Source: Morchella semilibera
Taxonomy: Eukaryota; Ascomycota; Pezizomycetes; Pezizales; Morchellaceae
DNA length: 64,000 nt
Direction of reading: 5' to 3'
Assembly (NCBI GenBank): GCA_009192285.1
Contig: WBVU01000015.1
Span: 1,314,190 to 1,378,189 of the forward strand
The translations under genes and the position numbers were made by a program. How positions within the stretch are numbered: the first letter of the stretch is position 1; the number at the start of each line of letters is the position of its first letter. Below, one piece after another: positions 25,601 through 49,983 of this stretch. The notes beneath the pieces are model-generated. The model had not been told where the DNA came from, searched no databases, and saw only the letters and a list, made by a program, of their open reading frames with translations.

Positions 25601-25617
25601 TCACACAATATCACTCG
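25601..25617 (-). promoter_or_regulatory. Bipartite motif CGAGTGAY-N5-RTGA
   Basis: CGAGTGAT, spacer ATTGT, GTGA. One of eleven exact matches in the window (see findings). Confidence 0.5.
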
Positions 25618-26747
25618 CAGTCATACTTGGCTGTAGGGAGGGCTGGACGGTGCGAGATTTGGTTAATTGACTGACTACAGGGCAGGAGAGCTGTTTTATA
25701 TATCCATATGAGACAGTCACATATTATACATGTATGCGTGGGGTGTGTACCGGACAAATAGCCCTAGGCACAAAGGTTGGCAATATACTCTACATGCGCT
25801 ACCCATTCCACCGCGGTACCAATGTAGATCGATTGACCAGTGGGCTATCCCGGTCTAACCCAGCGCCCTGCACTAATTGTTGCAAAACGGCGGTTCTCAG
25901 AATATAGATAGGCATGCTATCGGTAAAGAAAGAAAAAGTAGGTTGGGTGATGAAATGTAGCTTCCGAGCCTGGACCTAGTACCCCCAGTATGCATATGTG
26001 TCACGTCACGCCCTGCCAACGACCGAGCCACCCTCAACGCTGGTAACATACTTACACCTATTAAGCCCATGCCAGTAGATCAAGCACCATAACACCTAGT
26101 GCGCACCCCCTCTAGCAAAATAAGCTACCTATGTACCCTCTTTTCTCTTTTTTCCCCTCTTTTTCTTCCTGAATCAAGCTAGTTTATTTCTGGGTTAAGA
26201 GCGTGCAGTCATAGACTATGGCATAAAACCCCTTCCCCTAACGTCAAAAAACAAACATACGTCCCCAAAAAACAAAAACACAAAATCCCAAAAACGCAAA
26301 GAAAAATAGATCCAAGCATTGTAGAGAAGAAAGCAAAACACAGAACTACGGGGGAAAAAGGGGGGGGGGGGGGTAATGAGGACAACATGTATCCCCTTGA
26401 GTCTCTTCCCGGGGTCGTGTGCCTCTTATGAAGGCTTCGCTAGGTAGTCGTAGATAGTAATAGAGTGGTTCGAGGGTGGGGGGGGGGGTGCTTTAGACCG
26501 TGTCCATGGGGGAGACTTCGCAGCAGTTCTCCATGGGCCATTTTGCTCCCGGGCAGGAGCAACTGTAGTGAATGGCCAATTAAAGTAATACTGGGAACAT
26601 GCAAATATATCTATAAAACGATACCACTGATTACCCACCAGCCAGACGAGCAAAGTTGCGCTCTGGGTCTGTTGGACAAGCATTTCAACCCCCAACCACG
26701 TATAGATAACAACCCAGTTCAATTGACCCGTAACGCCACAGGCCGAT

Positions 26748-26764
26748 CGAGTGACATCTCATGA
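26748..26764 (+). promoter_or_regulatory. Bipartite motif CGAGTGAY-N5-RTGA
   Basis: CGAGTGAC, spacer ATCTC, ATGA. Confidence 0.5.
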
Positions 26765-27003
26765 CTACGCCCCCTTATCTTTACGGGGGCCGGGATGAAG
26801 GGCGCGCAAATACTTAGCTAGCTGCAGTCGTTGTCGTAGCTATAGATTATGTTCATGCATAGTCGAAGCTTTACTTATTGGCCAATATATAACATTAACG
26901 ACCCTGCATAATTCGACCCGGGAAGGGGGTTATACAAACCAACCACATGCAAGCTCTAGTCGTAGGCCATAGATCTTAACCCCTACGCCATTACTTGCAA
27001 TTG

Positions 27004-27096
27004 AAGAATTGGCCATGCATGAGATCAAAATTGCTATCTACGCCCTTCATCCAATCGTGGAGGTAATCCCTGGCCGGAGATAGCCAATTTTTCAGC
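27004..27096. mobile_element. MITE-like element, family M copy 1
   Basis: Aligns with the reverse complement of 27842-27948 through AATTGGCCATGCAT, GATCAAAA, CTACGCC and GGTAATCCCTGGCCGGAG. Ends GAATTGGC and GCCAATTTTTC are short inverted repeats. Confidence 0.65.
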
Positions 27097-27394
27097 ACAG
27101 CACCGAAAGCTACCTATGCTTGATCAGCTCTGGGACGCCACGCTGGGACCCAACAACGCTTCGATCCACACCCGGTTACTCGCGGCAGCGCAGGTAAGTA
27201 GTACCAGACAATGCGATCCCTCGGCACCCATTGGCCCAGGGATCCTTACTAACTAATCGCCCCATGCCCCGCGTATATATCCCTGACTTCTACAGTACTA
27301 CTGTGAGCATGCAACCAGTTTCACAATTGTGCACCACCTATATCCCATTACCAGCACAGCGCCTAACCACGCGTGTTACTGCCCCGATCGACCC

Positions 27395-27465
27395 CCATCG
27401 CCAAGCCAAGCCGGGCCAAGCCAAGGCCTCCGAATCATGAAACAGCACTCGCACCGACGACTTGC
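27395..27465 (+). repeat. Direct duplication, copy 1
   Basis: AAGCCAAGCC-rich stretch followed by AATCATGAAACAGCACTCGC, matching 28300-28360 in the same orientation. Confidence 0.5.
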
Positions 27466-27841
27466 GGGGGTTGGCTGTGGGTGCATACGTAACGCCCGTA
27501 TGGCCAAATCAAACAACGGACTCTTGGGTTGCGCTATCATGCTGACCACCCTCAAGAAGTCAATTTGTGTGGCTGGCAGATCCTCACTTCAAATAACGGA
27601 TCCCAAATACAAATCTAACCCCCGGATCGTCAACTGGGGGGGATAGTAGCCAGGCCCAGCTGAACCCATCGGGCTAGGCTTTGGATATGTAGGGCCAATA
27701 TCCACGCGGTAAAGCACATATAATATGCCTGGTATATGTCAGCCACCAAGATTACCGGACTAGCCGTGGCATTCCGGGGTCAAACAATTGAAAGACACCC
27801 GCAGGCTATTATGCAAGAACCGGCGCACACCACCGCAAAAG

Positions 27842-27948
27842 CTCGAGAAATTGGCTATCTCCGGCCAGGGATTACCGATTGGTTGAAAGGCGTAGGTCAG
27901 GTTTGCTTATAGTAGTTTTGATCTTGTATGCATGGCCAATTTTTCGAG
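27842..27948. mobile_element. MITE-like element, family M copy 2 (inverted)
   Basis: Ends CTCGAGAAATTGGCTAT and GGCCAATTTTTCGAG are inverted repeats. Opposite orientation to 27004-27096, about 750 bp away. Confidence 0.65.
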
Positions 27949-28299
27949 TAATGGTCTCCTTAAGCATGTGCATCGCTATATACATGTATCCACGCAACGC
28001 CCCACTCCAGCCGACGGAACCTGTAGCGGAGTGTTGGTAGGTAGGTGGGTGGTCTACATAACGCGGTATATAGAGACGGTAGTACCTTAACTTTGTGTAG
28101 CAGCACTACTTACGTATAGCTAGCTAGTACAGTATGCTGCGGCCGAAAATATCAAGGCTGGACAGGACAGTATGCGGTACGTTCATATCGATCTCGGGGG
28201 GTGCGGAAACCAGAGAACGTCCTAGCCTACAGGCCGAGAAAACTTTTTTTTTTGAGAAAAAACCGTTAACCACCACCAACCGGCCTAATCTAAGCCTAA

Positions 28300-28362
28300 T
28301 TAAGCCAGCCAAGCCAAGCCAAGCCAAACACCGATCATGAGACAGCACTCGCCCACCCGACT
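28300..28362 (+). repeat. Direct duplication, copy 2
   Basis: (AAGCC)n followed by GATCATGAGACAGCACTCGC, a diverged copy of 27395-27465. Confidence 0.5.
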
Positions 28363-28480
28363 GGTTATCTCGCCGAGTATTTATCCCATACTACAGTAAC
28401 TTAGCTTGCTAGAGTAGAGTGGAGCACCAGAGGTAGGTACATTACACCCCGCCATACACCTCGCCATGCACGGGGCCACA

Positions 28481-28875
28481 ACTCTCTGTCCTGTCCTGTC
28501 CTGTCCTGCCAGGTTCTCTACCCCCAGACCCAGACCCAGAACCAGGACCCAGACCCAGACCCAGAATCCAGAACCCAGACCCCAGAACCCAGAACCCCAG
28601 AACTCCAGTCCCGCCCGCCAACAACACCCCCACAACCAACGGCTGCTACATTTTTCTTCTCCAAAAGTGCACTTTTCTTTCTTTCTTTTGGGGGGGGTGG
28701 TCTGTCATTACCGTGTGTAGAGTACAGTACCACGCTGCACTGCACTGCACTGCACGCAGGGTCCGGGGAGGTTCCGTGGTTACACGTGCTCGCGGTGTTA
28801 CATGTATGTATGGTGTATGGTGTATGTATGGATGTATGGATGGATGTATGGATGGATGTATGGATGTATGGAGAG
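28481..28875 (+). repeat. Mosaic of different short tandem repeats
   Basis: Successive tracts of TCCTG, CAGACC/CAGAACC, CTGCA, GGATGTAT and GAGAG lie within 400 bp, downstream of the phosphate transporter gene. No coding potential. Confidence 0.75.
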
Positions 28876-29248
28876 GAGAGGAGAGGGAGGCACGCGACAC
28901 TGACAGACAGAACGTGCGTGCGTCTCGGGCCCGGGTCCGCTACGTTACATGTAATTTCATCGATACTCTACTCTACGGCGATGTCAATGTACATATGTAG
29001 CTAATACACATACACCCACTCTTCACCGCAAAAAAGGAAATTCGTAACACACCAAAAAGCAGACATCACCAACCAATTTATTGCTCTCGTCACAGAGAAG
29101 AAGAAGGGCCGTTCAAAAACCGCTACTACTAAACAGTACAGGAAAGAAAAGAAAAGAAAAGAAAACCCCGTTATATAGAAAACAAAAGACAGAGTAATTA
29201 CAAAACAATCATTGACGTCGGGAACCATCTAATAGCGACATAACAAAA

Positions 29249-31199
29249 TCAAGCAGACTCCTTCCCGGCAGCAGACGACGACGGTATCGGGGCTGCGCCC
29301 GCGAGCGCCTTCTCCTCGCTTGCGATTCCCTCGCCGTAGAGCTCCTCGCAGAGTTCTTCGAGCGTCTTGCGTTTCTGTAGTCATCGTAGTCAGTAATCGT
29401 GTCACGGTAGCAGTTTGGATGGGGAGACATACCGATTCAGGGATCAAAAGGGTCGTAAAGATGCCCGCAAACATGAAGGCGGCAAAGATCTGCATGACAT
29501 GGTTCAGCCACGGGGAAGCGTTCGTGGCTGTCGCGCCGCGCGTCCTCAGCGGCCCAATAAGCACCTGCGCGATGATGGCGCCGACCTTTCCGCTCGCGGC
29601 CGAGATGCCGTGGGAGGTGGATCTGTAGCGGGTGGGGAAGACCTCTCCGGGCACCAGGAAGGTTGTGGCGTTGGGCCCAAAGTTGAAGAAGAACTGGCAG
29701 AGCACGTAGAGCGCCAGCAGGCCCGACGAGGAGATGCTGTGGAAGGCGAAGCCGATGACGCAGAAGAGGATGGTGAGGATGACGAAGCCGCCGAGCTGGA
29801 TGGGCTTTCGGCCGATGGTGTCGACGGTGAAGACGGTGACCCAGTATCCGGGGATTGCGCCGGCGCACACGAGGATCAGGTTCCCGACGGCGTTGTTGTA
29901 GAGCTTCTGGTACACGTTGTCCTTGGCCGAGTATCCGATTTCTGCGAGGATGATTGATGTGTTGAGACCCAGTCCGTAGAAGGCGACGTCGAGGAGGAAC
30001 CAGGAGCCCGCGGTACCAATGAGGATCTTTCCGAACCTCCACTGACCGTAGTGCCTGCAGAAATCTGACCAGGATGCCTTGGGGACCTCGAGCTGCGTGC
30101 GGGCCTGCATGGTCTCGACGCGGCGGATCTCGTCAACGTCACCGGAAGGCTTGCCGTTGAGGTATGCGCCAACATCGGCGTCGGCCTGCTCGACATCGCG
30201 CGCAACGTCGAAGGTGTAGCGCGGGGTCTCGGGGATGGTGAGACGATAGTAGAGGGCGATGCATCCGGGAACGGCGCCGAAGCCGATGATGATACGCCAC
30301 ATGCGGTCGAGGGCGGTCTTGCAGGCAGGGCCGCACTCGCTGGCGTGGTTGGCGCCGATGGTCTGGGACTTGAAGGCGACTGTCACGATTAGAGCCATTA
30401 GGGCCGCGCCGAGCTGACCGATACCCTGCATGGCGAAGACGGCGCCCATCATGGCACCACGCCATTTTGTTGTCGCGAATCTGCAGTGTTTTGTTAGCGG
30501 GCAGTTTGTGGTAATGATCGTGGTTGTAACTTACTCGGCAGTGATGATTGATGACAGGGGATAGTCTCCTCCGATACCAATTCCCATAATGACACGCCAG
30601 AAGACGAGGATGCCGACAATGTGCATGGAGGGCGATTCCGATGACAATGCTTGTGCCAGAGTAGTCGCGATGATGATCATGAGTTCGAGTCCGTACATCT
30701 TCTTACGGCCCACCACATCGGCAAGCCATCCAAAGAGGAGCTGCCCGATGACCGTACCGCCCGAGGTGGAGACTTTGATTGCCGTATCGGAGGACGAGGG
30801 GATCGAGCCATTCTGCCAGTATACCAGTCCCAGCATACCAGTGACCAAGTTGATGGCGAAAATCTAGAAAGAGAGCGTATGAGCATGGGTGTTTTCCCTT
30901 AGTAGCTGTACCTGCAGTAGAAAAGACATACATCATAGGCATCAGTGAAGAAGCCAATACCAGCCACAATCACAGCGCGCACATGGTACCATCCAAAGGG
31001 GGCCTTGTCAATCTCGGCGAGAGCCAAGCGACGCCTCTCGTTCGGGTCCTTTACGGCATGTCAGCAAACCCTACTATAACCTCATCTGTGACAGGGAACT
31101 CACAGCGATGTGCGCAAAGTCGTTATGAAAGTTGTGGAACGCCGCGTTTCCACCAACAGTCTTGTGCACCGGGGCAGTGGGTACAGGGGCGCTCGCCAT
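29249..31199 (-). CDS. PHO84: High-affinity inorganic phosphate:H+ symporter, PHO84 family (MFS)
   Basis: Imports phosphate with protons across the plasma membrane. Exons: 31199-31104, 31048-30932, 30863-30535, 30480-29433 and 29374-29249, giving 571 residues, the normal family length. Introns are 54-68 nt and all junction phases agree. Visible signatures: WYHVRAVIVAGIGFFTDAYD at the end of exon 2 (first helix), the MFS loop GWLADVVGRKK, GIGIGGDYPLSSIITAEFATTKWRGA (family hallmark around residues 170-190), AMQGIGQLGAA, and GSWFLLDVAFYGLGLN in the seventh helix. These contain the Asp, Tyr, Gln and Trp residues that bind phosphate in the crystal structure of the Piriformospora indica transporter. 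A long hydrophilic central loop follows helix six. The C-terminus reads PESKRKTLEELCEELYGE and only appears when the last intron (29375-29432) is removed. CACGTG lies 58 bp upstream of the ATG, as expected for PHO4/NUC-1-type control. No defects seen. Confidence 0.95.
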
Positions 31200-31256
31200 T
31201 GTACAGGATATCTTCAATTGACCTGTTAGCCCAGAACTCGTCTCTCGTGTCCACCC

Positions 31257-31262
31257 CACGTG
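31257..31262. promoter_or_regulatory. CACGTG E-box upstream of the phosphate transporter
   Basis: A palindromic CACGTG lies 58 bp upstream of the transporter ATG at 31199. It is the core site of the bHLH phosphate regulators PHO4 (yeast) and NUC-1 (Neurospora). Its function here is inferred from motif and context; it could also fall in the 5' UTR. Confidence 0.5.
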
Positions 31263-31596
31263 TGTGTGTGGGGAGTGTCATGCTATGCGGTTCCATCCCC
31301 CGCGCACGCACTATCCGTTCATCTAAAGTCTTGTCGTTTTTCCCTCTTTCCATCTAAAAACTGCCATTCTTGGGGGAAGACGAAGGGGGGAGCTTCCACA
31401 AACCTTTGCTTGGTATTCTGGGCAAAAGCTTGTCCACTAAAAAAAAAAACACTCTACAGGCACAGTCATAGTTAGAACATGTAACAATTTCGATCCCAAG
31501 AACATTGGCACAGTGTTGGCGTTCCATCCCGCAGAGCCAAGCAGTCTGAGATTAAAGAGTGAAGGAAAAGCTTACGGGAGAGCCTATCAACCAGGG

Positions 31597-31602
31597 CACG
31601 TT
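31597..31602 (+). promoter_or_regulatory. CACGTT, possible second low-affinity PHO4-type site
   Basis: CACGTT is the weaker PHO4 site variant known from yeast PHO promoters. It lies about 400 bp upstream of the phosphate transporter start. The motif is short, so chance occurrence is possible. Confidence 0.25.
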
Positions 31603-32825: not shown

Positions 32826-32851
32826 AAAAAAAAAAAAAAAAAAAAAAAAAA
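32826..32851 (+). repeat. Poly-A tract, 26 nt
   Basis: Uninterrupted run of A. I looked for a flanking target duplication that would mark a retroposon and found none. Confidence 0.9.
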
Positions 32852-33789
32852 TTCCGGTAACTGCGGAAGCATCATACATATCTACATATCTCACATCACT
32901 CCCAAAGATCTGCCTGCCACAGCCGAGCCTCACCAGTCTGCGATTATCAAACTTCTCGTCTGATCGAGCGCACATCGCCCCGAGCGGCCCATTTTCTACG
33001 GACAGGCTGATTGTTGCTGTGCTGCCTCGGTACGCGCTGCGTGGTGGAGGTGTAGGAAGACTACAACGTTACATGGAGCTCGCCTAACAGCATCGCCCCA
33101 GAGTAAAGTATATACCTCTCGTTAACGAAAAACGACCCCCCGTCAACGCCATCCCGAAAAAGTAAAAGTAAACTTCAAGACCAGTCGAATCAGACCAACC
33201 ACAGCCTGCACGTGCGTCGCACACAATTAACCTCTCTCTGCGCGGTGAGTTTAAAACGCCGCCACTCTGGAACTCGTTACATAACCATCCCCCCCCCCCC
33301 CCCCCCCACGCCACCAGCAGCAGCAGCCCTAACCCAGCACAGCCGGAAGAGAGAAAAAAAAAAAATGCAAGCGACGGGTATCGACCCTATCCCTGGCGGC
33401 AAGTGACAGTCCTGCTGAAGAGAGGATCAGGATCAGGCCATCAGCATCGATATTTGAACCTGGTACTACTACTGTGTACTCTCTCCATACAGAACCTTGC
33501 TTCTTCGCACGCTTTTTATCACCCGACAGCTATGGGTGGGTAGCTTCAAGTCGACCCGAGTATCTCCGCTCCGGTGAGCCCAAGACTATGTGGAACGGCG
33601 CTAGAAGAACCATGGAAGAAAGAAGGTTCCGCTCAGCTGTGCGTGCGGAAAAGCTTTAAAACCCTGCTAGCCAAAACAGCGCGGGTGCTGGGTCATGTAT
33701 TGTCACTCGTGTCGATTCAATTGCGTAGTAGGCGTGGGTACTTGTATATAAATAATAGGACCCCAACCACGCCGTTGCGTCTATGTATG

Positions 33790-33816
33790 CCACCACCACC
33801 ACCACCACCACCACCG
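33790..33816 (+). repeat. (CAC)n microsatellite
   Basis: Nine near-perfect CAC units in the region upstream of COG5. Confidence 0.9.
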
Positions 33817-33914: not shown

Positions 33915-33931
33915 TCACCGACCGTCACTCG
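33915..33931 (-). promoter_or_regulatory. Bipartite motif CGAGTGAY-N5-RTGA
   Basis: CGAGTGAC, spacer GGTCG, GTGA; 834 bp upstream of the COG5 start. Confidence 0.5.
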
Positions 33932-34527: not shown

Positions 34528-34544
34528 TCACGGGCCATCACTCG
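34528..34544 (-). promoter_or_regulatory. Bipartite motif CGAGTGAY-N5-RTGA, COG5 upstream region
   Basis: CGAGTGAT, spacer GGCCC, GTGA; 221 bp upstream of the COG5 ATG, the only copy at promoter distance from a recognised gene. Confidence 0.5.
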
Positions 34545-34764
34545 GTGTGCGCACTGTTTTAATTGCAGGGTGTCCTCGGTATGCGTGCTGCCGGTGTGGG
34601 GGGTTTATTGTATCCCCACCCCCACACCCGGCTGTGGCTGTCTTGGCGTTCTAATCTCTTGACATCGGCACTCGGACCAGGTCTTGATACTCACGATATA
34701 CAGATCAGACATTCACGGATTCACACTCACGGATTCACACTCAGGTACACAGTTCAATTCAGAC

Positions 34765-35943
34765 ATGGCCGCCCCAGAAATCTCCTACATCGACTACGAG
34801 ACCTTCCTCTCGCCGGCCTTCTCCCCGCACGCCTTCGCAGCAGCACTCATAACCACCACCAACGACCCCTCAGACCCAACAGTAGACCTGAGCACCCCTC
34901 TCTCCCGCGTCCTCTTCGACCTCCAAGAGATAGACACCCACATCCACACGCTCACCACCACCTCCTCGCACCCCCTCCTAACCTACACCTCCCGCTCGCA
35001 CACCGCCTCGCACGCCCTCCTCCACGCCATAACCGCGCAGACCGCCGCCCTCAACGCCGCCCACACCCGCCTCACCCACTCCATCACCGCGCGCTCCGCG
35101 CCCGCAACCCAGCTCGTCACAGCCCTCGAAAACCTGCACACCGCGACGTCCCTCCTCCGCGAACTCGGCCGCGCCCTAACCCTCGCCCGCCAGCTCGAGA
35201 TCCAGCTCTCCGAGACCCCCACCCCCCTCGTCCGCGCCGCCCACAGCGTCGTCGAGCTGCGGCGGCTGCTCGCGGCGAATGCGGGTGCGATGCAGGGCGT
35301 TGACCTCGCGGACGAGGTCAACACGCTTGTTGTTGGGCCCGCTGGGGCCGCGCTCGTTGCGCGGTCGCGCGAGACGCTCGTGGGGTTCTCGTTGCTGCCG
35401 CAGGCGGCGGCGGCGCCGCCCCCAGGGGGGTCGGCGTTTGCGCTTGATCCGGCGGTTGTTGCGGAGGGGTCGCGGCCGGCGGTGACGGCGGCGGTGCAGA
35501 CGTTGCATTTGCTGGGGGGGTTGGCGGGGACGATGCAGGCGCTGCTGGACGCGCAGGTTGGGGCGTCTGTTGCGTTGTTGACGCGGGCGCTGACGGCGCT
35601 GACGACGCTTGATCGGACGCTTGTGGAGGTTGCTGGGCGGTGTCGGACGCTTGTGGCGGTGGAGGGGATGATGGCTGGGGCGGGGTTGGACGCGGAGGTG
35701 CTTGCCGAGTTGGATACGCCGGCGCTTGGGACGTCGTTTTTTCGCTCTGTTGCGGCCGGGTGGGAGCCGAGGGTGAGGGAGGTTGTGGCGCGCGGGGGGA
35801 CGAATGCGAGGATTTTGAGGACGGGGAGGGAGAAGTTGAGGGAGGGGGTGAGGGGGTGTGTGTTGAGGGGGTTGGGCGACGGTAGGGGCGGGGAGTTTGA
35901 GGTGGCGGTTATGGTGGGGGCGGTGGGCAGCTTGGGGAGGTAG
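34765..35943 (+). CDS. COG5: Conserved oligomeric Golgi complex subunit 5
   Basis: Subunit of the COG tether, which captures retrograde vesicles at the Golgi and keeps glycosylation enzymes in place. Single exon, 392 residues, close to the length of yeast Cog5. The start at 34765 (MAAPEISYIDYETFLSPAFSPHAFA) begins the conserved N-terminal segment; the open frame extends further upstream only through non-ATG codons. Residues 45-150 are long amphipathic helices (LSRVLFDLQEIDTHIHTL, then LVTALENLHTATSLLRELGRALTLARQLEIQL) typical of COG coiled-coil subunits. An Ala/Gly/Pro-rich stretch follows at about 210-230, then more helices (VQTLHLLGGLAGTMQALLDAQ, LTALTTLDRTLVEVAGRC). The coding strand changes at about 35265 from C-rich to G-rich third positions with no change of frame. 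It stands alone between long intergenic regions. Confidence 0.85.
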   Translation: MAAPEISYIDYETFLSPAFSPHAFAAALITTTNDPSDPTVDLSTPLSRVLFDLQEIDTHIHTLTTTSSHPLLTYTSRSHTASHALLHAITAQTAALNAAHTRLTHSITARSAPATQLVTALENLHTATSLLRELGRALTLARQLEIQLSETPTPLVRAAHSVVELRRLLAANAGAMQGVDLADEVNTLVVGPAGAALVARSRETLVGFSLLPQAAAAPPPGGSAFALDPAVVAEGSRPAVTAAVQTLHLLGGLAGTMQALLDAQVGASVALLTRALTALTTLDRTLVEVAGRCRTLVAVEGMMAGAGLDAEVLAELDTPALGTSFFRSVAAGWEPRVREVVARGGTNARILRTGREKLREGVRGCVLRGLGDGRGGEFEVAVMVGAVGSLGR

Positions 35944-36184: not shown

Positions 36185-36201
36185 TCATGAAATGTCACTC
36201 G
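36185..36201 (-). promoter_or_regulatory. Bipartite motif CGAGTGAY-N5-RTGA
   Basis: CGAGTGAC, spacer ATTTC, ATGA; 242 bp past the COG5 stop. Confidence 0.5.
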
Positions 36202-36309: not shown

Positions 36310-36640
36310 GCCCGATTCATGGACGCGGGTCGTGTCGGGTGGGTTGGGTGGGCTGGGGTTGGTTGGTTGGGCTGGGTTGGTTGTATGTATGGCGGCCTGG
36401 AATGCGGGTGTGCAGGGCGGCGACGGTGTAGATGGTAGCACCGGTGTGTAGAGTGACCCCAGGACCAGTGGATGGGGGTTGGGGTCGTCCTGCGGCCGAG
36501 TGATAATCTGTGACTCGCGCAACGGGTGGTGTAGCTGGGGGGATGGCGGGGTGCTTCTATGGTTGGTTGGTTGGGTTTTGTGTGCGGTGTGGTGGTGGGG
36601 GGGTTCTGGCTGGGGGTTGGAGGTGTATGTGGAGGTGTGT
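36310..36640 (+). repeat. G/T-rich tract with repeated GGTTGG
   Basis: GGTTGGTTGG, GGGCTGGG and GGTGGGTTGGG recur on the plus strand about 400 bp past the COG5 stop. Many short G runs allow G-quadruplex formation in principle. Confidence 0.6.
36497..36513 (+). promoter_or_regulatory. Bipartite motif CGAGTGAY-N5-RTGA
   Basis: CGAGTGAT, spacer AATCT, GTGA; 296 bp from the preceding copy and in opposite orientation. Confidence 0.5.
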
Positions 36641-37006
36641 ATATACATTCACTGGTGTATAGTACTCAATCCTAGCTTGTGCTTGTGCTGTGCTTGCGGT
36701 GATAGCTTTCTTGCTGTAGGGTTTATAGCCAGCCCCTTTAGGTCGGCGTCGGCGCTGTGGTGTTGATACGTTCCTCCCTCCTTTCCTTTGGGGGGGAGTA
36801 GCGGGCGCGCGTTGCAAGTGCGTACTTACATACCAGGGGTTACCACCTCGCCCCAAGCAGGTACATGCATGTATACATGCACTCTGGTTATCCCCTCCGC
36901 TCCCCCAATGCCATTCCTGCCAGTTAGACCTTTCATTTCCTTTGATGCGTTGCCAAGGAGATCGATCTTGGGGGCTCATAAACGACAACGGCACAAGCAA
37001 AGGCAT

Positions 37007-37165
37007 CGTGGCGTGGCCTAGTGGTAGTACACTGGGCCTCGCCATATGACCACGACAGGTTCAAATCCTGGTGGGAGCAGTGATGAGAAAGCCCAACATG
37101 GTAGCGACGCTCTTGAGGGATGACTACTTCTTCACGTAAGTCTTTTGTTGCCGGCCTTTTTTTTT
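37007..37165 (+). ncRNA. Possible Pol III unit (tRNA-like A and B boxes, T9 terminator)
   Basis: An A-box-like TGGCCTAGTGG begins at 37014 and a B-box-like GGTTCAAATCC at 37058, with tRNA-like spacing of 44 bp between starts. A run of nine T at 37157-37165 could end transcription, giving about 155 nt. The T arm pairs for four base pairs, but the acceptor stem and anticodon arm do not form, so this is not a functional tRNA. It could be a tRNA-derived SINE head, a tRNA pseudogene or an unknown Pol III RNA. Confidence 0.35.
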
Positions 37166-37900
37166 ATCGGTGGTCTCTCTACGGTATGTACATGTTGTCG
37201 TGCTTAGTCAATAGGTTGCGGGGCGCAAAAGGATGTAATCTAGTACATGGTAGATATACGCCCTGTTTTCCGGCTTTATTTTTAGAGGGGGTGGATACTT
37301 GTGTATGTATGTAGCTATAACTGGGAGTAGACATGCGCCGCCGGCTGGCAGGAAGCGTTGGTGGGGCTGTATACAGGAGCCGCACCAGCCCGTTTTCTGT
37401 TCCGCCTCTAGTACGTACAGCGAAACCCTAACCCTGTGGGTCAGGGTCGGCTAGGTTTGCACTGTGGACACACGTTTTAGAAGGGAGGGCGTGGTCCTAG
37501 CGTGGAGATTGTTGGCAGGGGTTGTAGACTGTTTCTGGGGAGGGGTAATTGTGGGAGGTATATAGATCGTCTTTTGGGCGTTTGTGTTGTGTGTTGTGTA
37601 AGGAGTTGAGATTGTATATGTGGGCCCTATCCCCTGGACTGTCACCTGACTTTGTCCTATGCCGGAAATCATCCTACGTTTCCTTAGGGGGATTATTCTT
37701 GAGGTACTAGGCGGTGATGTAATGTGTATATTAGGTTACTAATCGTTGTTGAGATACAAGTATGCTTAGGGACAATTGCAAGGCACATGGAGCGGTAAAT
37801 GTGCCAAAAGTAATGGTGGTATAAGCACTGAATTTCAGTCCTTGTGCCAATACAAATGTCTTTATGCTGCGCTGTACTATATTAACCATTAGTACTACTT

Positions 37901-38539: not shown

Positions 38540-38556
38540 TCATGGATCATCACTCG
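38540..38556 (-). promoter_or_regulatory. Bipartite motif CGAGTGAY-N5-RTGA
   Basis: CGAGTGAT, spacer GATCC, ATGA. Confidence 0.5.
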
Positions 38557-39269: not shown

Positions 39270-39286
39270 TCACCGGTTATCACTCG
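39270..39286 (-). promoter_or_regulatory. Bipartite motif CGAGTGAY-N5-RTGA
   Basis: CGAGTGAT, spacer AACCG, GTGA; about 350 bp past the F-box gene stop. Confidence 0.5.
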
Positions 39287-39633: not shown

Positions 39634-42397
39634 TTACAAGTTTCCTGTCCAGTTTATGCTGGCTGGCCAGGATCCCATGTATCCAACGTCGACATCACTC
39701 TCCCCCTCTAACCCCTCACTGCCACTCTCATCACCCGCATCCATCTCCCCGTACCCCTCCTCCGTATCCTCCCACGCGGCTACCGCATCATTATCCCATC
39801 CCATCCACGCACTACCGGTGCTATCACTATCGCTTTCGGAAGCGTCAAAACCATCCGGGTCAGATTCGGTGGCATTGGCAAAGTGGTGTGCGATCTCATA
39901 ACTATGGCGGCGTTCTACCTCTAGATCCACGCCACCAATGGCACGTCGGAGGTCACGGGAATTGATAAATGTAACATCCTGATTTATGACCTCCGGCTCG
40001 GAAGAAGTGGGGTTGGTATCTTCAACGACGTCTCGCCATTTGATCCATAGTCCGTTCCAAGGGAGGCATTCGTCGTCGTGGCGTTCGTGAATGTTGAGTG
40101 ATTCCACTTCGAGGTCGTCTATATTGCAGCCATGTTAGTTTATGGGGTGAGGGTAGCACAGAGGAACTAGAGTAGTACTTACCGGCATCACCAACTCTCC
40201 AGAGACCCTGGAATGTCTTTTGCTCCATATCCCAGATTCCCATTTTCCACTCAGCACAAACGCCAAGGTACCTCCCGCACCCACTGATAGTAACATATTT
40301 ATCCAACTCCCCCCACCCCTGTGGTGTGGGAATTCTATTCCTGGGGGCCACCAAAAGCGCGTTTGCCTCTGCTTCTGTCTCACCCTTGAAGATGCCCACC
40401 TGCGGGGGGTCCTCAAGACTGGATTCATCACCCAGATCCCATAGGAATAGGTTCTCGTATCCATATCTCTTCCTCCTACCAATGCCGGCCCACATGCCAT
40501 CATCGTCATCTCTACGGACCGGTGGACCAAGTCCGCCTAGAGATGCGACAAGAATGCCATCACCGAGGGCAAAGGAACACCACATATAGCAGCGCTCAGG
40601 AATACTCCGTTCTTCCTCTGCAAGATTGAGAATCTTGATTGTATCACCAGTCTGGACAGAGAGAATATGGAATTCCATGACAGCCTTGTACGCATAGCGG
40701 TCCGGGCGCCCTGCAAGTGGGATAATATGACGGCGAGTAGAATACGCAACCACAGTAGAGTTCATGGTAATCCCATCGTTATCGAGCCAGTATTCACCGC
40801 CCCTCCCATCGATCCCCTTCACGACCATTCTACGCTGCCAACGGAGGCTGTTGTCGGAGCGCATGAGTCTGTGATTCTGATCCGCATCATTTGTGAGGCT
40901 AGTCGGGGCGCTTCCTGCAAAGCAACTGATGGTACTGGCACGACGGCCACTGTTGTCGTCGCAAACAATGAGATGTTCACCACAGCTCTTGAATTCCCAA
41001 GTAATATCTCCATGTTCCTCGTCCCAGTCCGTCTCGACATCGCGCTCGGGGGAAGCTTCCGGGCTGAGCTCCTTTACAGAGCGGGGCATTTTCCACACCA
41101 TGTTTACCTCCACATCGCCATCTGCATTCTCCATACAAAGTCGCTCCACTGCTGCAACCTCTAGTTGCTTCTGCACAAGTCGGGGCACAAGCCGTAGGTT
41201 TGCGTCTGAATGGAGGAGCGACTTTGCAAAGCTTACAAGACCGGCATCTGACACATGCTTCATGGTCCACAATGCCTGAGCCACAGTGAACCGCTGTTTT
41301 TCATCTTCAGGCGGCGGCGTTGCAGATGACCCCTTCCGCAGAAGTGCCCTGTATGTGCTCGCATTGATGCCGTGATTGACGTCTCCCCAACGTTGCGCAT
41401 TCATGAATTTATCATGGTCCACTGGCTTGATAAAGGGGCTCCATGCTTTCTCGGCCTCTGCGATATCTTCAGCACTCGGTGGCGGAAATACATGGGGTAT
41501 GTCTAAGTGGTCACGTTTTGAGCCTTTAAACTTGCCGGCCAACGCCTCCACCTTCTCTTGATGCTGCTGTTGTAGCCTCTGCCCTAGAGGTACATTAGAT
41601 GGTGATGCCGAGGGGGCACCACCGAGAATTGCGGCACGTTGGACTGTGATCCAGGCGCGATCGCGCTTTTCTGGGAATACACGGGGATCATCGGAAAAGA
41701 GAATCCAGCTTGAGGTTTCGCCCTGTTTCGAAGATGTCTTTCCAGGTGGTTGGGCGTCTCCCCAGCCGCATGTCTTCACGCCAACATAGGCGACGCCCTC
41801 CTCGGTGCGTGCTGCTTCGGTAGAGGAGTGTACAAAGTCGATGATACGGCTGACAGTGCGCCCTTTAGGGTCCACTGATAGAGGGGGCAGCTGTGCGGCA
41901 GCGCATTTCTCGTTTTGGTGCGAGGTCAGGGTCCGGAAGTTGTCTTGGATCTTCCAGTCACGTGGGACATACCTAGGCCCATATCGCGTGGTTGGACAGT
42001 TTCCGTCTGGGATACTGGTTGTTGAGGGATGATGCAGCTCGGCGGGAAATTCTCGGCGAGACAAGTGCAAAGTTCTAGAGAATGCCTTAAAGGTTTGTCG
42101 CTTTGTAGTAAGTGAAGGAGGTACACGGGTCCCAGACAGAGTGGGGGATGGGAAAAGGCGGGTGTCGTGAGAGAGCAGGAAGAAAGCTGCGGCACGGTAA
42201 ATGTATTTGTCGAGAGTGGGATCCTCGATTATGTGGTGGAAGCCCTTGCAGGTGAGGTTACAGGACCGGAGGGAATCGGGGCCGCCGGCGAGACCGACGA
42301 ATGTAAGAATGCGGAAGAGGATTTCAGGCGGGAGGCGGGAGATTGGGGATGATGGCAGCTCCATCTTCCTGTGGTGTTGAGATTCTCTATTGTCCAT
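39634..42397 (-). CDS. F-box domain protein with long C-terminal region and acidic tail
   Basis: Probably a substrate receptor of an SCF ubiquitin ligase; the substrate is unknown. Exon 1 is 42397-40183 and exon 2 is 40118-39634, joined by a 64-nt intron (GTAAGT donor, CTAAC branch point, phase 1), giving 899 residues. I chose the ATG at 42397 (MDNRESQHHRKMELPSSPISRLPPEILF); the open frame continues upstream only through GTG and low-complexity Pro/Thr codons. The F-box spans about residues 18-60 (ISRLPPEILFRILTFVG, then LRSCNLTCKGFHHII). Residues 400-740 contain Trp- and Gly-rich strands such as YLGVCAEWKMGIWDMEQ, which suggest a degenerate beta-propeller (inference). The last 100 residues are rich in Asp/Glu/Ser. 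The 5' flank is a GTG/GGT-rich simple repeat. No frame break seen. Confidence 0.83.
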
Positions 42398-42399
42398 CG

Positions 42400-42470
42400 G
42401 TGGCGGTGTAGTGGTGGTAGTAGTGGTGGTGGTGGTGCGATGATTGTGGAGTAGTGGTGGTGATGGTGCT
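42400..42470 (+). repeat. (GGT)n-rich tract upstream of the F-box gene
   Basis: GTG/GGT/AGT triplets directly 5' of the F-box gene ATG (42397), probably in its 5' UTR. Confidence 0.75.
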
Positions 42471-45400
42471 GATGTCAACACTAGTACTAGTAGTAGTGGA
42501 GAGAGGCTTTGAGGAGGAGAAAGGCAATGCTCCGTAAATGTAAATGGTATATATTTTCCCCTTCCCTATCAGCAAAAGGTAACTGCTAGAGATATGTGGG
42601 TAGCTGAGGTGAGAAATGTAGTAACTGAGGTATATGAGTGAGGTTCCGTGTTGCTCACAGACACAGACGGGACATTGATTATAGATGTATGCCTACTGCT
42701 GCCAAACACTGTGTAAGTAATTTGTCGTATCCTGTCCTAGCACTGCTAGTTGTCTGTGTCTCTCTTTTCTCTTCCTGTCAATTCCCTGTGCTGTTGTGTT
42801 GTGATGGTGGGGGGGGGGTATAGAATTGCAGCAGTGTGTGATCGGATGTGCAATATCATCATCTCCATAGAGAAGATCGGGGGGAGTACGACAAACAATG
42901 AAATCCACAGTCAAGTGTATATCCAAAAAAGAAAGAGTCTCAGAAACATACACCTTAAACGGCACCGTTTTTTTTGCAAGTGGTGTTTTTGCTTCTTTTT
43001 TTCCAGTGCAGTTGACGCGGATCACTTCTATACTAAGGCGGGGGGAAGTGATATAAAGATAACAAATGAGACTGTAGCTACTGCAACTGCATGCTTGCCT
43101 ACTGGCTACCTGCATGCTCTTCTCTTCGACCTCTTCATCTTCTAGTTATTCATCTTTTACTTCAACCAGCTACTAACGATTCTCTTCAGTACCCCCCCCC
43201 CTGGGGGGATTAAAGAAGAAAAAGAAATTCCCGTATGCTGTATGCTGTATGTCAGTACACGTACCTACCTGGTACCACCATCGTCCGATATGTTCTTCCA
43301 AGAACTGAACATTTTCTTCCTTGCTTTTGCATATATTTCTACTTGCAATTATGAAAAACATTTTCACTCTTGCGCCACGCTCACAACCAGCGACCAGACA
43401 ATCAATCAGTCAAACAACTGCTTAGCAAGCTAGCTGCGTCGTGTCATGTATGTACCAATGTACCTATAGAACCAAAGCCACTGACGGACAAAGCTGGGTA
43501 GGGAAAACGCACAACCAGAAATATTTATGTGGAATATTCCGACCACCCACAAATTGAAGATTAACCTCCGGCTGGCGTTTTTTTTATACCTAGCACAGGG
43601 TCAAAGCAAGCCACCGAATACGGCTACTCGCACTGCATGGAAATCTTTGGTAGGATGTTGTATGTGCACTAATATACTTACAGTAAAAAAGAATGGGACC
43701 CACACAACCTCAAGACATATATCTGTTATATCCCTTTGAGATATCCCTTTGAGCTCGCTCATGACAGGTAGGCAGACAGGCGTTGAAAAGAAGACCCTGC
43801 ATCTATTCCCCCCACCTCTCTCTCTGCATGTTCTTACATCGTCCTCCGCCTGATGGTAACCCCGGGCACAGAATGCAAGGCAATCATCAATCAGCCCATT
43901 CTCTATGTCTTTTCTCCTCCGACATATCGACCATCTAGATGTGTTGTTTGGAATGTACGATATTATAAGTCAGGACGTCGATAGTTCTGTGATATATGCA
44001 ACCCTTGTGGTCCAGACGTCACACACACAGACAGGTTTTTTGTGTATCTGTAGAGTAATCTTTCATTTCCACCCTTTCCCCGGCCCCCAGTCTTGGTCGA
44101 AGGCAGTAAGGCAAAAAAAAAATTAAATGCGAAAAGAGACCGTGAAACATTTGAGGTGCAACTTCGCATTTGCCCCCACCGCGCGTTTTGTTTCGTTCGT
44201 TCGTCCATACGTATGATCAGCGGCGAAGAAGTGGGCGGCTGTTATGGTATATATACCCTGAACAATTATGCATCCAGGGACCTGGATGGGTGGGCGTGGA
44301 TAGGATAGATGCTTGATGCCTGGAAGAACGACAGAAACACCCTGGAATATGTACTCTGTAAAGCACTGTACTCCCAAAACAATTCCACCACCGTCATGCA
44401 GAATGTAAGTTCGTCCTCCCCTCGAGGCAGTCTGTTTACCGTCTGTTGCTAACACGGCCATAAAACGCCCACCATGACAGCCCCACCCTTCGCTCTCAAT
44501 AACAGTTTAACATCATCTCAGTCGCCGCTCTTCGCATCCAGCGCGGTTCGCTCCCGTGCCACCACACTGCGCTGCTGCTACTGCAGCGGGACATCGCACA
44601 ACCCATGCTGTTGGGTTCAGAACATCCATCCAACCTTTTTAACCACCCCCCCTCACCATTTCACCCCTCTCCATCCAATGACGTATATTACCGTACCGCG
44701 ATGTCTCACATCTCCGCTGCAACGGCATGGCACGGCAGTTCTTATTGATCGATTGAGGTTAGATGGCTTTTTGTTTGAACTCATACCAAGTGTCCATACC
44801 GGTGTCCCCGCTGCACCAAAAAAAACTATGATAGGAAAAAATTAAAGCAAGAAAGCTCATAAACTGGGTTTATGTGGATTGAAAATACCGAAGGCCGATA
44901 ATTGGTGTAAAACATCACTACATCAATGTTGCGCACCTCGAGTGGAACTACATGTAGGTAGATGCACTTGCACTACTACATGTAACTAATGCAACAGTCC
45001 AAACAGGCACATGACACAGGATGTCATATTGTTTATTTTGTGAACTCCATTCTGCGCACCCATCCATGCCAGCAAGACATAAGGCGGACGTGTAACGTAA
45101 AACAGAACAACGCAACAGAACATCTAGATGATTATTCCTCCGAAACGAATTCCGAAGCATCCTCGATGACCATGTTTTACAAAGCCAAGCACTAAACCCT
45201 GAATGGTTTGGCTGGGGTGAAAAAACTGTTGAAGAATCCATATCGAGAGTCATCTATGTGAAAGGAACTTCACTCCTAGATGTTATTTTTGTTGGGCTCC
45301 GATTCCACATGGGGGGGGGGGGTTACATGTACCTACATGTACTTTGGTCCAATGGCCCTTAAGAGATTACAGTCTCAAGTACATACATGTATGTATGTAC

Positions 45401-46052
45401 AGTAGGCACTTATTATTGAGCAAGCCCTAGATCCTTATTCGTGGGGTGATAGTAGTAGTGGAGGTTTGGGCTGAGAGGGGAAGCTTACAATTGTTGTCTT
45501 GTGTAACGTAACGTAACCCATCAAGCTCTTGTCAGTTTTCTGATTTCTCCGCACTTTTCAAACTTGGGGAAGATCCCGTATATAGATACTACATTGGGTC
45601 GGTCGCCCATCATTTTTTTGCCTCCAGAGCTACAAGAGACAAAGGAGACGGCGGGAAAGAAGATAACTCTGATCCCCACATTTCCATAACTATGTATTCC
45701 CAAGTGCCGGGGGAACGGGGAATTCCCCCAAAGAATCGGGCGTGAAGCCCTGCAGGATAATGGAGTGGGCCAGGCTTTCTTGGATCGATAATACCGCCAG
45801 GACATGCCACAGTAAGTTTACGAAGAAGGCTGTTGAAGGGCTTAACGTGTCATGTTCGATTTGGCACCAAAATCGAACAAGAAGGCCCAAGATCTACTCA
45901 CCTTTGGGGGGGGGGGTATCATAAATCCCGGTCCACTTGCATGGAGACTAGAAGATATATAGAAATGCAGGCCATCATGTGGTTTTATAGAATCGTAGGT
46001 TGGTCCTAGATGACATATAGTCGATCGGTTTATTGAATTAAGGGAAAGCTAG

Positions 46053-46069
46053 CGAGTGATTGATTATGA
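46053..46069 (+). promoter_or_regulatory. Bipartite motif CGAGTGAY-N5-RTGA
   Basis: CGAGTGAT, spacer TGATT, ATGA; in gene-free DNA. Confidence 0.5.
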
Positions 46070-47142
46070 AGGCTTGGCCCTAACTAGTTTTCGATTCTTT
46101 TCATCCAATTATAGGTATTCAAATATCTTCCAAAGACACTTACTATATATATATATAATAGCACTCTCTAGGATCTCAAGCTTATTAACCAAAGATTCAA
46201 ACCCCATGTGAGAGGGAGAAAAAAAAACAATGATCGAAGCCCAAGCGCGTCTCCGCAGTTGCAGAATCAGTAAGGTGGGTGATACCGACACAGCCGCGGA
46301 ACAGCACCTCCTCCATCTACCAGCGCCATAATTCTGTACCAAACCCGGGGCTCCGGCAAGTCAACAATTAGCCTTCCGGCCCCAAGTTTTGGAAAACACA
46401 AAACCCAGGCTAGTGAAATAAGATTTCTCTTGATCCCGTTCGGTGCGACGGCAGAAAAAGGGAATTTTGGATGCATCCACACCTTCTGTACATGTTGTAC
46501 CCTTTTGATTTCCCAACAATGGAATTTTAAGGTTGATGGGAACCCAGGAGAGCATTACCAGGGAGGAATAGTGGAGTGCAGGAAGCAAGTACCCCACAAA
46601 TTCCGAAATCTAGGTAAGCTATACACCACCATGAGTTATCACAAATACGGTAGGTGTTACATAGAGTGACAGGTATATAAATTTCAGTCAACGACTACTT
46701 TTCTTATTCTGACTTCTACAATCATATAGAGTGGCACCTCCCACAAACGCCGCATATTCGCTCTTGAAAGAACTGCGCTATTTATGATGCCACGTGACGC
46801 CAATATCTTTGGCTTGAGAAGATGCGGTTGCAGCCATTAGCTAATTAGAGAGTTCCGGCCGGTAACTATACCAACCAAGCCAGGTTATATATGAGAGTAT
46901 AATATCAGAATATATAGACACGGCCTTTTATTTATATATTAAAATCTCCCCATGTACTAATATGTACAAGAGAGGAGAATTCAAGGGGAGGAGGGGCGGC
47001 GGATAGGCCACTAGCATTGTTCAGCTACGGAGACTTGTATCTTTGCTACATGTAGTTCTATATGACATATGCCGTTGATTATCTAATTAATAGTTGCATG
47101 GTATGCGTTAGCCAATGCTTTTTGTACTTTAGGTCAAATTAT

Positions 47143-47265
47143 TATACTCGTCTACCAGCATAAGAACCAAAAAATTCAATTTGTATAGAGTAGCGATGAT
47201 CTCTCCTACAAATCATTCCTGTTTCCGTCACTTGCATTTTCTGGTTCTTATGGTAGACGAGTATA
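47143..47265. mobile_element. MITE-like element, family D copy 3
   Basis: Terminal repeats TATACTCGTCTACC and GGTAGACGAGTATA, with ATAAGAACCA inside the left arm and TGGTTCTTAT inside the right. The TATA edges fit a TA target duplication, as for Tc1/mariner-type MITEs. Confidence 0.75.
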
Positions 47266-47312
47266 TGTTAGGTGAAAAACAAAAAAGTGGGAAAACAAAA
47301 TTAATCGTCATT

Positions 47313-47329
47313 CGAGTGATAATATGTGA
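47313..47329 (+). promoter_or_regulatory. Bipartite motif CGAGTGAY-N5-RTGA
   Basis: CGAGTGAT, spacer AATAT, GTGA; 48 bp beyond a family D MITE. Confidence 0.5.
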
Positions 47330-48304
47330 TTAAATTTATAGTTGGTCGAGGGCTTAGTATAAGTGAGTGTTAGTTCGTATTAACTACTTATAGCCTGCCT
47401 CTAAAATATTCTACATTTATTCAACATGGGACAATGACCTCTAGCTCTTGATATCCCCCAAATCTGGTGGATCGGCTCCAGCGTAGCTTGTTCTTTAGTC
47501 AGTCAATCGGTCAATCAAGCTTGTACTTTTTTTGAGACTAGTAACCTCAAATTTTTAGATGCCTAAATGATTTTATATTAAGCTAGACTGTATTTTAATC
47601 ATGCGGATTACCCCTGATCGCTGGTGACATGCAGCTCCCCACTAGCTGCCCAGTCTATTAAACACCATAAGTATATTACAACAAGCAGCACGCATATATC
47701 ATAAAAGGCAGTAACATAGTTCTTTTTTGTGGCTCTTTGGCTTGACATGTTAACCATATCTTGATCGGTATTGATTGCGCCATCGAAACCAGTTTTTCCC
47801 GATACATGCGCGGCCTGATATGAATAGTTAAGCATATAAGGAACATACATAGGTCCAGACATGGCTATTTTGAATTGTTTGATAAAAGGGGTGATATTTA
47901 TGTGAGCTGATGAGCGAATGTAATGTCATGTCGATTACCGAATTCGTCTAATTAGCATGGGTGAAGTTATTTGAATTATTTGATCTAGTCGAATATACAT
48001 GTAATTAACACATGGAACTAAATGTATGCACATGCATACGTCACACGATTGGCTCAAACGAGCTAGCATTAACTTCATTAGACCACGTGCTATCTTGTGC
48101 GAGCACAGAATTCCTATCCTTAAAGTTGCCCTCCATCTCGTTTTAAACATCACCACCACCCTCGAGCCCAATTGCAATACCTACGTCTCGTTCAGGAACG
48201 AGTGAATACTTATTTCTAGATGTTTACGCAGCACTATAGGATTTCAAGGTTTTCTTTCATGAACCCACCCGCATTTTAAGGCAGAACCCTGATGTTCATA
48301 CGGA

Positions 48305-48402
48305 GGAGGTCGATAAGTATGTGAGTAGCCCAATTCTACTTTGTAGTAACAACAAAACACCTCTACGCCTTGCTTACTCACATACTTACGTCCTTCCTCT
48401 CT
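48305..48402. repeat. Inverted repeat, possible small element
   Basis: TAAGTATGTGAGTA near 48314 pairs with TACTCACATACTTA near 48374; similarity extends outward (GGAGGAGGTCG against CGTCCTTCCTC). Solitary in this window. Confidence 0.5.
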
Positions 48403-48836
48403 CGTCTCATTTATAGGCCCCCAGGGGGTGTCAACCAATCAATCGAAAAACACTTGTTAAATTCGCCCAATTTACCAGAAAGAGGATCGTTTAAGTTTGG
48501 CCCGCCTAGGAGTGGTTTTCCACTCCAGGAGCTAGAGTTTGGACCCGGTTGCCGGAACCTTGGTGTCGCTTCCCTTTTTGAGCTTCAATTAAAGTTGTGC
48601 GACTCTCGATGACTTACCCCAAATGGGCTTATTCTGAAATTGGTGACCACTCCCTCCATTTAGATTCTTTAAATAAAAATCCAGTCTGTCAAGTGTTTGT
48701 TGAGAAAGCTAACGCCGTCATGACCAAATCAGAATGGGGGAAACGGAATTTCTATGTAGGTGGAACCACATATCTCTTAATCCCAGGCTCTGACGCAGTT
48801 GTGCATTCCAATATGAATATATACAGACCACCATAA
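48370..48836 (+). pseudogene. Possible gene remnant, two short frames
   Basis: A frame ending at 48612 (SGFPLQELEFGPGCRNLGVASLFELQLKLCDSR) overlaps one starting at the ATG 48609 (MTYPKWAYSEIGDHSLHLDSLNKNPVCQVF... to 48836). They read like protein but match nothing I recognise; chance is possible. Confidence 0.15.
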
Positions 48837-49966
48837 CTCTGAAACGAACCACCTACAAAATTATGTACTTTACAACCTCCACCGCTTACATATACTCATC
48901 GCGCTCATACGAATTGACCGAGCAGCTACATTTCTTTGCCGAAGAACGGATCATCGGACCTGAAGTAGCTGGTTATATGTTTACTGGCTAAATTTACCAC
49001 TAACGCCTACACCCACAGACTTCAAGGACTTATAAACACAATAATTCAAAGTAACCGAGTGAGCGAATCAATACCCATATGCTTGGTTACTTGGATAAGT
49101 CATGCAGGGACTGACCTCTAAACGAGTTTAGGTCAGGCACTTAACTAACCGGCCCAAGCCTCGGGGCCGCAGGACACCGATACGACCCCTGCCCTGATAA
49201 TTAAATGACTCCACCCTCGCATATTTAGTGCGGTTGAAGAATTGCTCCTAAAAGTTGATATTCTAGGGCTAGGAAACAATTTGACCAACTCTGCGCGCCT
49301 ATACCTATGAGGGGGATTTTGGGCAGACACAGCCCTGTCTTAATGTGTTTGAGAGGCGGCTTCGGGCAAGTGTAACCAACCGGTTTTTTGGTAGCTATCA
49401 TCGAAGTCTCTGTCAAGAGCTACAGTATTATGTATATCTGAAAACCTGGACACTTTATGCAAAACTCTAGATGCTGTCAAGGACTTGCCGGTGACCGCCG
49501 TTGGACTAAAATCAGAATAAGGACTTTGAATTATTCAGCTTCATTACCAATGTGGTATTAGAAAGAGAGAGAAAAGACTCAAATCATAAGGGACTTAACC
49601 CCATAGTTATCTCCTTCGATTTCCAAATAACCCCCCCCCCCTGGGGGGGCCCTATATGGTAGGCACAAGGTATGTGTATGCCATCACATCACTGAATGGG
49701 GATATACAAACCATATACCCGGGCCCAGGCCTGTGTGTGCGTGATGTGCATGTGTATGTGGGTGCTCGCGCAAGTTTATGCGAGTATTTTGTACTCCTTC
49801 AGGCCCGCATGTGAAAAGATTTTGGTCATGGCCAGATGGGTTATACACCTTAAGATATTAGCTGGTTAATTGGTTTCTACCTCTAATTTCGTTGCTTTAA
49901 TTTGGGAGACTAAATACCAGTAATAAAGTGCCTCAATGGAATTGGAACATCGTGTCGCACAGTCGT

Positions 49967-49983
49967 CGAGTGATGATGTGTGA
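49967..49983 (+). promoter_or_regulatory. Bipartite motif CGAGTGAY-N5-RTGA
   Basis: CGAGTGAT, spacer GATGT, GTGA; in gene-free DNA. A near match ending ATGG lies at 50655-50671. Confidence 0.5.

Follow-up and report, generated by a model that had tools for sequence, protein, structure and literature searches.

A Fixed-Spacing Bipartite Motif at Thousands of Places in the Genome of Morchella semilibera, a Candidate Site of an Abundant DNA-Binding Protein

Introduction

The yeast general regulatory factors Abf1, Reb1, Rap1, and Cbf1 have abundant intergenic sites by gene ends, and textbook sites of yeast regulators carry fewer than ~21 bits. The Abf1 site is RTCAYTNNNNNACGR (TCAYT-N5-ACG), and the Cbf1/E-box site is RTCACRTGAY. 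Animal CTCF sites are long, asymmetric, and high in information, with thousands of copies. The set of general regulatory factors has been replaced between yeast lineages (PMC2897762). For filamentous ascomycetes, a catalogue of Fusarium promoter motifs is a comparable genome-wide survey; GAGTGA, TCAC, and TGAY were not found by term search in its main text (PMC2853525).

In this study, the motif CGAGTGAY-N5-RTGA, proposed in an earlier note on a 64-kb stretch of Morchella semilibera DNA (the window), was investigated in the window and genome-wide. Like the sites of the yeast factors, its copies are abundant and, in the stretches sampled, intergenic and found by gene ends. The motif differs from those sites in sequence and is longer and stricter; it occurs in a filamentous Pezizomycete, and some of its sites lie far from predicted genes. 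The motif shares with the Abf1 site the bipartite form, the five-base spacer, and an RTCAY/RTGAY box, but its second half is a direct-repeat RTGA and not ACG. The faint Abf1 likeness of the reverse-complement form suggested earlier did not hold: the ACG half was missing, and a T followed TCAY in ~5% of 77 sites and was absent in ~95%. The Abf1 profile PF04684 matched neither the genome nor any of 14 control genomes. The RTGAY half-site is common to the motif and the Cbf1/E-box, where the halves form an abutting palindrome; those of the morel are direct repeats 10 bp apart. CTCF sites are alike in length, asymmetry, information, and copy number, and different in sequence.

No printed description of the motif was found within the literature searches made. 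A search for CGAGTGA gave no fungal motif among the titles listed. A search for TCACTCG with fungi, promoter, and motif gave none on such a motif, judged by title and the start of the abstract. A search joining Morchella, nucleosome, and ATAC-seq gave no paper.

Abundance and Spacing of the Motif

The motif was counted on both strands of the 56.76-Mb assembly. A total of 7,438 copies were found, divided equally between the strands (3,680/3,758), with a mean density of one site per ~7.6 kb. The reversed pattern, used as the genome-wide background, occurred 16 times in the same assembly; the real motif was ~465 times commoner. Dinucleotide shuffles were made for the window only. The window contained 12 exact matches on both strands, far above the mean of 0.03 in 100 shuffles. 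The second half was present after 7,438 of the 11,207 CGAGTGAY octamers in the genome. In the window it followed 8 of 11 CGAGTGAT octamers, exactly as counted earlier, and 4 of 5 CGAGTGAC octamers.

The extended motif was YCGAGTGAYANYYYRTGAYY, in which an (A/G)TGAY box occurs twice as a direct repeat 10 bp apart. Its information content was ~21 bits. The earlier note had described two GTGA boxes at this distance. The direct repeat was borne out, but the boxes were unequal in 77 sites, with CGAGTGAY as box 1 and RTGAYY as box 2. The tendency of the spacer to begin with R and end with Y held over the same sites.

The effect of spacing, a check proposed in the earlier note, was investigated genome-wide. 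N4 spacing gave 84 matches (~89 times rarer than N5), N6 spacing gave 61 (~122 times rarer), and the form with the second half inverted gave 13. The reversed controls were 22 for N4 and 16 for N6. Since N4 and N6 both exceeded their own controls, the N5 spacing was not absolute. When GAGTGAY-gap-RTGAY was scanned in a 194-kb sample, 41 matches were found at gap 5, with 0–2 at every other gap from 0 to 15. The motif is a highly over-represented site of fixed spacing genome-wide, as is expected for a general regulatory factor. Most likely, a single abundant DNA-binding protein uses it as its binding site.

Sites Within the Window

The features of the window are listed in Table 1. All 11 exact matches reported earlier were recovered and a 12th was added. 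The two near matches already described are each off at the last base, and three further one-mismatch copies were found. The reported distance between one site and COG5 was reproduced, with the gene identified by its Pfam match. A PDB search with the F-box protein gave no match, and nothing was found when the window was scanned for Rfam families and tRNA.

Table 1. Motif copies and predicted genes in the 64-kb window.
Feature	Position	Strand	Basis
Exact motif	25601..25617	-	Pattern match
Exact motif	26748..26764	+	Pattern match
Exact motif, absent from the earlier list	33693..33709	-	Pattern match
Exact motif	33915..33931	-	Pattern match
Exact motif, 221 bp upstream of the start codon of COG5 (34544 to 34765)	34528..34544	-	Pattern match, Pfam (COG5_N)
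Exact motif, ~250 bp beyond the COG5 frame end	36185..36201	-	Pattern match, gene model
Exact motif	36497..36513	+	Pattern match
Exact motif	38540..38556	-	Pattern match
Exact motif, ~350 bp beyond the 3' end predicted for the F-box gene	39270..39286	-	Pattern match, gene model, Pfam
Exact motif	46053..46069	+	Pattern match
Exact motif	47313..47329	+	Pattern match
Exact motif	49967..49983	+	Pattern match
One-mismatch motif, last base	18956..18972	+	Pattern match
One-mismatch motif, last base	50655..50671	+	Pattern match
One-mismatch motif, seventh base	27435..27451	-	Pattern match
One-mismatch motif, seventh base	28335..28351	-	Pattern match
One-mismatch motif, fourth base	3082..3098	-	Pattern match
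COG5 gene	34765..35943	+	Pfam COG5_N E=2.4e-33, COG5_C E=5.6e-8; own gene model
Sugar transporter gene	29249..31199	-	Pfam Sugar_tr in two frames of the gene; own gene model
F-box protein gene	39634..42397	-	Pfam F-box-like E=2.3e-7 on 40022-42397; own gene model

Flanking Sequences and Mismatched Copies

The flanks of 77 unique sites were compared, with overlapping neighbours left out. The matches were limited to the duplicated locus L001/L002 and one 37-bp stretch. Apart from these two, the sites share no alignable flanks, which upheld the earlier view that they are not copies of a single dispersed transposon or repeat.

Exact copies outnumbered one-mismatch copies in the 194-kb sample (41 and 23, respectively). 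Drift without selection should yield more one-mismatch than exact copies, and the result suggests selection on the motif. Genome-wide, at least 12,188 matches with up to one mismatch (exact matches included) were found, compared with 683 for the reversed pattern; because 12,188 is a lower bound, the sample was preferred for the mismatch comparison. An excess of exact copies is also a mark of driven words, such as the DNA uptake sequences of some bacteria. The motif might be a word that spreads by itself, either left over from a tiny mobile element or promoted through gene conversion or uptake. This reading is improbable in view of the flanks and of the halves, which are fixed while the spacer varies, unlike a copied element. 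In addition, predicted genes are avoided, and where the window was searched for copies (30 kb), no repeat that was found contained the motif.

L001/L002 was the sole diverged duplicate pair spanning a site; L002 and L003 denote the same DNA. The L002 site aligned with a one-mismatch copy in L001, where a further exact site lies just upstream. The difference fits site turnover or deletion, as a single case and not as proof. Contig C13 was 99.9% identical to the window: the alignment of 64 kb contained 4 mismatches and 51 gap openings, and was therefore of no use for measuring constraint.

Distribution Along Contigs

The earlier note had placed the motif in the middle of the window. This was correct for the window but not beyond it: among the matches listed for contig C1, sites extended from 0.03 to 6.16 Mb. 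In 1.34 Mb of C1 with both strands covered, runs of sites were broken by deserts, and the median gap between C1 sites was 4.3 kb. The origin-linked element named as one option in the earlier note would agree with an asymmetric motif and with the intergenic position of the sample sites. However, one site per ~7.6 kb overall and the median gap on C1 are far denser than the origins of known fungi. With a site every 4–8 kb, such a role is very unlikely.

Dimeric factors of fungi usually have bipartite sites with direct repeats, and the motif could belong to a pathway-specific transcription factor of the ordinary kind whose regulon is unusually large. We consider this to have little probability. 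Sites occur throughout the 1.34 Mb of C1 except in the deserts, and the identified neighbours of the window sites (COG5, sugar transporter, and F-box protein) look unrelated. There are ~0.64 sites per gene, calculated with the 11,565 genes published for Morchella crassipes (PMC7014384).

An architectural or insulator site was also considered, at which a many-fingered protein, CTCF-like, would mark the boundaries of domains or gene units and not open promoters. The site is long, with its ~21 bits, and non-palindromic, so that orientation could have meaning. Of 24 pairs of neighbours 0.7–1.5 kb apart on C1, 18 shared a strand. Tight clusters exist, such as four sites at a 23-bp period, and sites lie by both the 5' and 3' ends of genes and also kilobases from predicted genes. 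Over all distances, however, neighbours shared a strand in 103 of 189 C1 pairs, about one half. To our knowledge, no CTCF-like protein is known in fungi, and a literature search on CTCF and insulators in fungi and Ascomycota found no paper. The CTCF-like reading is unlikely, although an insulator or architectural site and the site of a general regulatory factor would look alike in these data.

Placement Relative to Genes

Placement was investigated in the 194-kb sample with its 41 exact sites. Rough gene models of our own were used; these miss genes (five models in the 64-kb window, one under the score cut), and distances and positions outside genes are approximate. None of the 41 sites was inside a predicted gene, with ~10 expected from the 25% of the sample spanned by genes (P=6e-6). 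One of 30 further central sites of the L loci was inside a predicted intron. The claim that all sites are intergenic was thereby supported in the sample.

The median distance to a gene end was 1,086 bp for sites and 2,086 bp for random intergenic points, with 8 of 1,000 draws as low; the random-point test disregards close site pairs and therefore yields P values that are a little too low. Within 1 kb of predicted 5' ends, 13 of the 41 sites were found against 7.5 expected, and within 1 kb of predicted 3' ends, 12 against 6.9. The distance from predicted gene starts was not fixed.

Eight of the 41 sites were less than 500 bp from a predicted 3' end, with 3.6 expected, which would agree with an RNA-level signal acting in processing, termination, or stability of transcripts. 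Such a signal is highly improbable: sites took both orientations relative to genes (9 same and 5 opposite upstream, 10 and 4 downstream), and 7 of 41 were more than 3 kb from any predicted gene. The strand was the same as that of the neighbouring gene in 19 of 28 cases, a bias that was not significant (P=0.09). Together with the equal strands genome-wide, this fits a DNA-level site.

Proposed Recognition by a DNA-Binding Protein

Among the options raised in the earlier note, we prefer the site of an abundant general regulatory factor. With a probability of about 0.6, the motif is the recognition site of one abundant sequence-specific protein of this kind. A single protein would touch both (A/G)TGAY boxes, one helical turn apart, make an extra contact with the CGA extension of the first box, and accept most bases at the positions of the five-base spacer. 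It would occupy intergenic DNA, with about two sites for every three genes, and would lie close to the starts and ends of genes more often than expected by chance. Binding would probably hold these stretches open or apart, as nucleosome-free regions or as promoter and terminator boundaries. We infer the binding, the oneness of the protein, and the effect of binding from the sequence pattern.

A bolder and tentative reading, to which we give about one chance in five, is an architectural protein specific to this fungal lineage that would equal animal CTCF in strictness and pervasiveness. In morels, it would mark a large part of the intergenic stretches in gene-bearing DNA, and selection would preserve its exact site at thousands of places.

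If the site is read by one protein, few DNA-binding regulators in a fungus would be as pervasive and as strict. Such a protein would help to explain the layout of promoters and gene boundaries in filamentous fungi, where the yeast factors differ. Annotators could use the motif to mark functional intergenic DNA as opposed to site-free deserts.

The composition around 76 sites was without a strong AT or GC feature; downstream, a slight gain of C and loss of G was observed. When gapped words were surveyed in the sample, the motif ranked below triplet repeats and below a family of palindromic TACAT/ATGTA words.

Abundance and Spacing of the Motif

The motif CGAGTGAY-N5-RTGA was counted by pattern search in the whole assembly (56,756,124 bp in 23 contigs). 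There were 3,680 forward and 3,758 reverse matches, against 5 and 11 for the reversed pattern, the motif read backwards as a control for chance counts. Spacers of four and six bases gave 84 and 61 matches (22 and 16 for their reversed controls). These forms were about 89-fold and 122-fold rarer than the five-base form, yet both slightly exceeded their own controls. With the second half inverted, 13 matches were found against 18 for the control. The second half (RTGA) followed 7,438 of 11,207 CGAGTGAY octamers (66%).

The assembly is partly duplicated; therefore, the non-redundant motif count is below 7,438. Contig C12, with the window at 1314190-1378189, was 99.9% identical to contig C13 over the window (4 mismatches, 51 gap openings). 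Motif variants also matched at parallel positions in C9/C10 and C21/C22, as near-duplicate contigs. Duplication should alter the ratios among N5, N4, N6 and controls little. For Morchella crassipes, the published description gives a genome of 56.7 Mb with 23 scaffolds, a longest scaffold of 7.34 Mb, 47.3% GC and 11,565 predicted proteins (PMC7014384). Contig C1 here was 7,341,407 bp long. With that published protein number as denominator, the density was about 0.64 sites per gene.

The window held 12 exact matches, whereas 100 shuffles of it averaged 0.03. All 11 exact matches listed in the earlier note were recovered, and its near matches at 18956 and 50655 were both present. Its count of 8 of 11 CGAGTGAT octamers followed by the second half was correct.

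Features located in the window
Feature	Position	Strand	Evidence
Exact motif site absent from the earlier list	33693-33709	-	Pattern match
Dispersed repeat, ~288 bp	18557-18844 (motif-poor left part)		Many copies, 79-93% identity (38 of 1,086 candidates scored)
Dispersed repeat, ~430 bp	36822-37256		Dozens of copies, 72-94% identity (38 of 502 candidates scored)

Shape, Exactness and Flanks

A 194-kb sample (the window and C1:1000000-1129999) contained 41 exact cores, compared with 0.06 predicted by fourth-order Markov sequence, and 41 of its 53 CGAGTGAY octamers carried the second half. When the gap in GAGTGAY-gap-RTGAY was varied from 0 to 15, gap 5 gave 41 matches and each other gap 0-2. The 77 unique sites compared had the extended form Y-CGAGTGAY-A-N-YYY-RTGA-YY, a direct repeat of two (A/G)TGAY boxes 10 bp apart with CGA ahead of the first. 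The information was about 21 bits with one-mismatch copies counted in. One-mismatch copies in the sample numbered 23, all but one lying outside predicted genes, and they differed most often at the first base (8 of 23, five to T). This excess of exact copies is the opposite of what drift without selection should give.

The motif was rejected as a repeat: with overlapping neighbours set aside, matches among the flanks of the 77 sites were limited to a single 37-bp stretch and to L001/L002, a duplicated locus. In this diverged duplicate (L001:1501-1543 and L002:2257-2273), the L002 site lay opposite a one-mismatch copy in L001, where an exact site stood just upstream. Site turnover or deletion is possible. 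Both dispersed repeats came from a copy search over 30 kb of the window, and neither contained the motif. The ~430-bp repeat contained A-box-like TGGCCTAGTGG and B-box-like GGTTCAAATCC words, as in a tRNA-derived SINE; Rfam and ARAGORN scans of it gave no match.

Placement and Interpretation

Gene models came from a simple self-trained finder seeded with long sample ORFs (29 in 194 kb before the score cut); those retained covered 25% of the sample. They are rough and miss genes, so the placement figures are approximate. None of the 41 sample sites lay inside predicted genes (P = 6e-6), and 1 of 30 further site-centred loci (L024) had its central site in a predicted intron. The median distance to a gene end was 1,086 bp, against 2,086 bp for random intergenic points (8 of 1,000 draws as low), in a test treating sites singly and ignoring close pairs. 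Near 5' ends, 13 sites lay within 1 kb (7.5 expected) and 7 within 500 bp (3.9 expected); near 3' ends, 12 (6.9 expected) and 8 (3.6 expected). Seven of the 41 were more than 3 kb from the nearest predicted gene. The 41 sites kept no fixed distance to gene ends, and strand bias relative to genes was not significant in the sample (19/28, P = 0.09, with some sites entering twice, once per side). Several adjacent open frames at window 12453-15336 (minus strand) may be one gene split by introns or frameshifts; the four frames searched had no Pfam match at E 0.01.

Several properties favour a DNA site recognised by one abundant putative protein: the spacing is strict, matches are balanced between the strands, the spacer sequence varies, predicted genes are avoided, and the copies are exact and dense relative to gene number. 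Since general regulatory factors have been exchanged between yeast lineages (PMC2897762), the most economical reading is that this protein would act as such a factor. The main rival is an architectural role for the motif.

On C1 up to 1,343,221, 190 sites were found with a median gap of 4.3 kb, and most 50-kb bins held 5-13. Spacing was uneven (CV of gaps 1.81 versus 0.99 under uniform placement), with gaps of 149 kb and 65 kb, so that the lack of sites in the window's flanks is nothing unusual. Both reverse-transcriptase matches listed in that stretch of C1 (150 of 610 candidates scored) fell within the 149-kb desert (C1:635,606-784,359). Of 189 pairs of adjacent C1 sites, 103 were on the same strand; among the 24 pairs 0.7-1.5 kb apart, 18 were. 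A 6-kb cluster (C1:858513-864504) held seven sites, all on the minus strand, and a tandem array (C1:5477751-5477839) held four consensus sites with a 23-bp period.

In a gapped 5+5 word survey of the sample, only triplet repeats and a palindromic TACAT/ATGTA family ranked above the motif. These palindromic words were also strongly over-represented (TACAT-N2-ATGTA, for example, 36 versus 1.6 expected).
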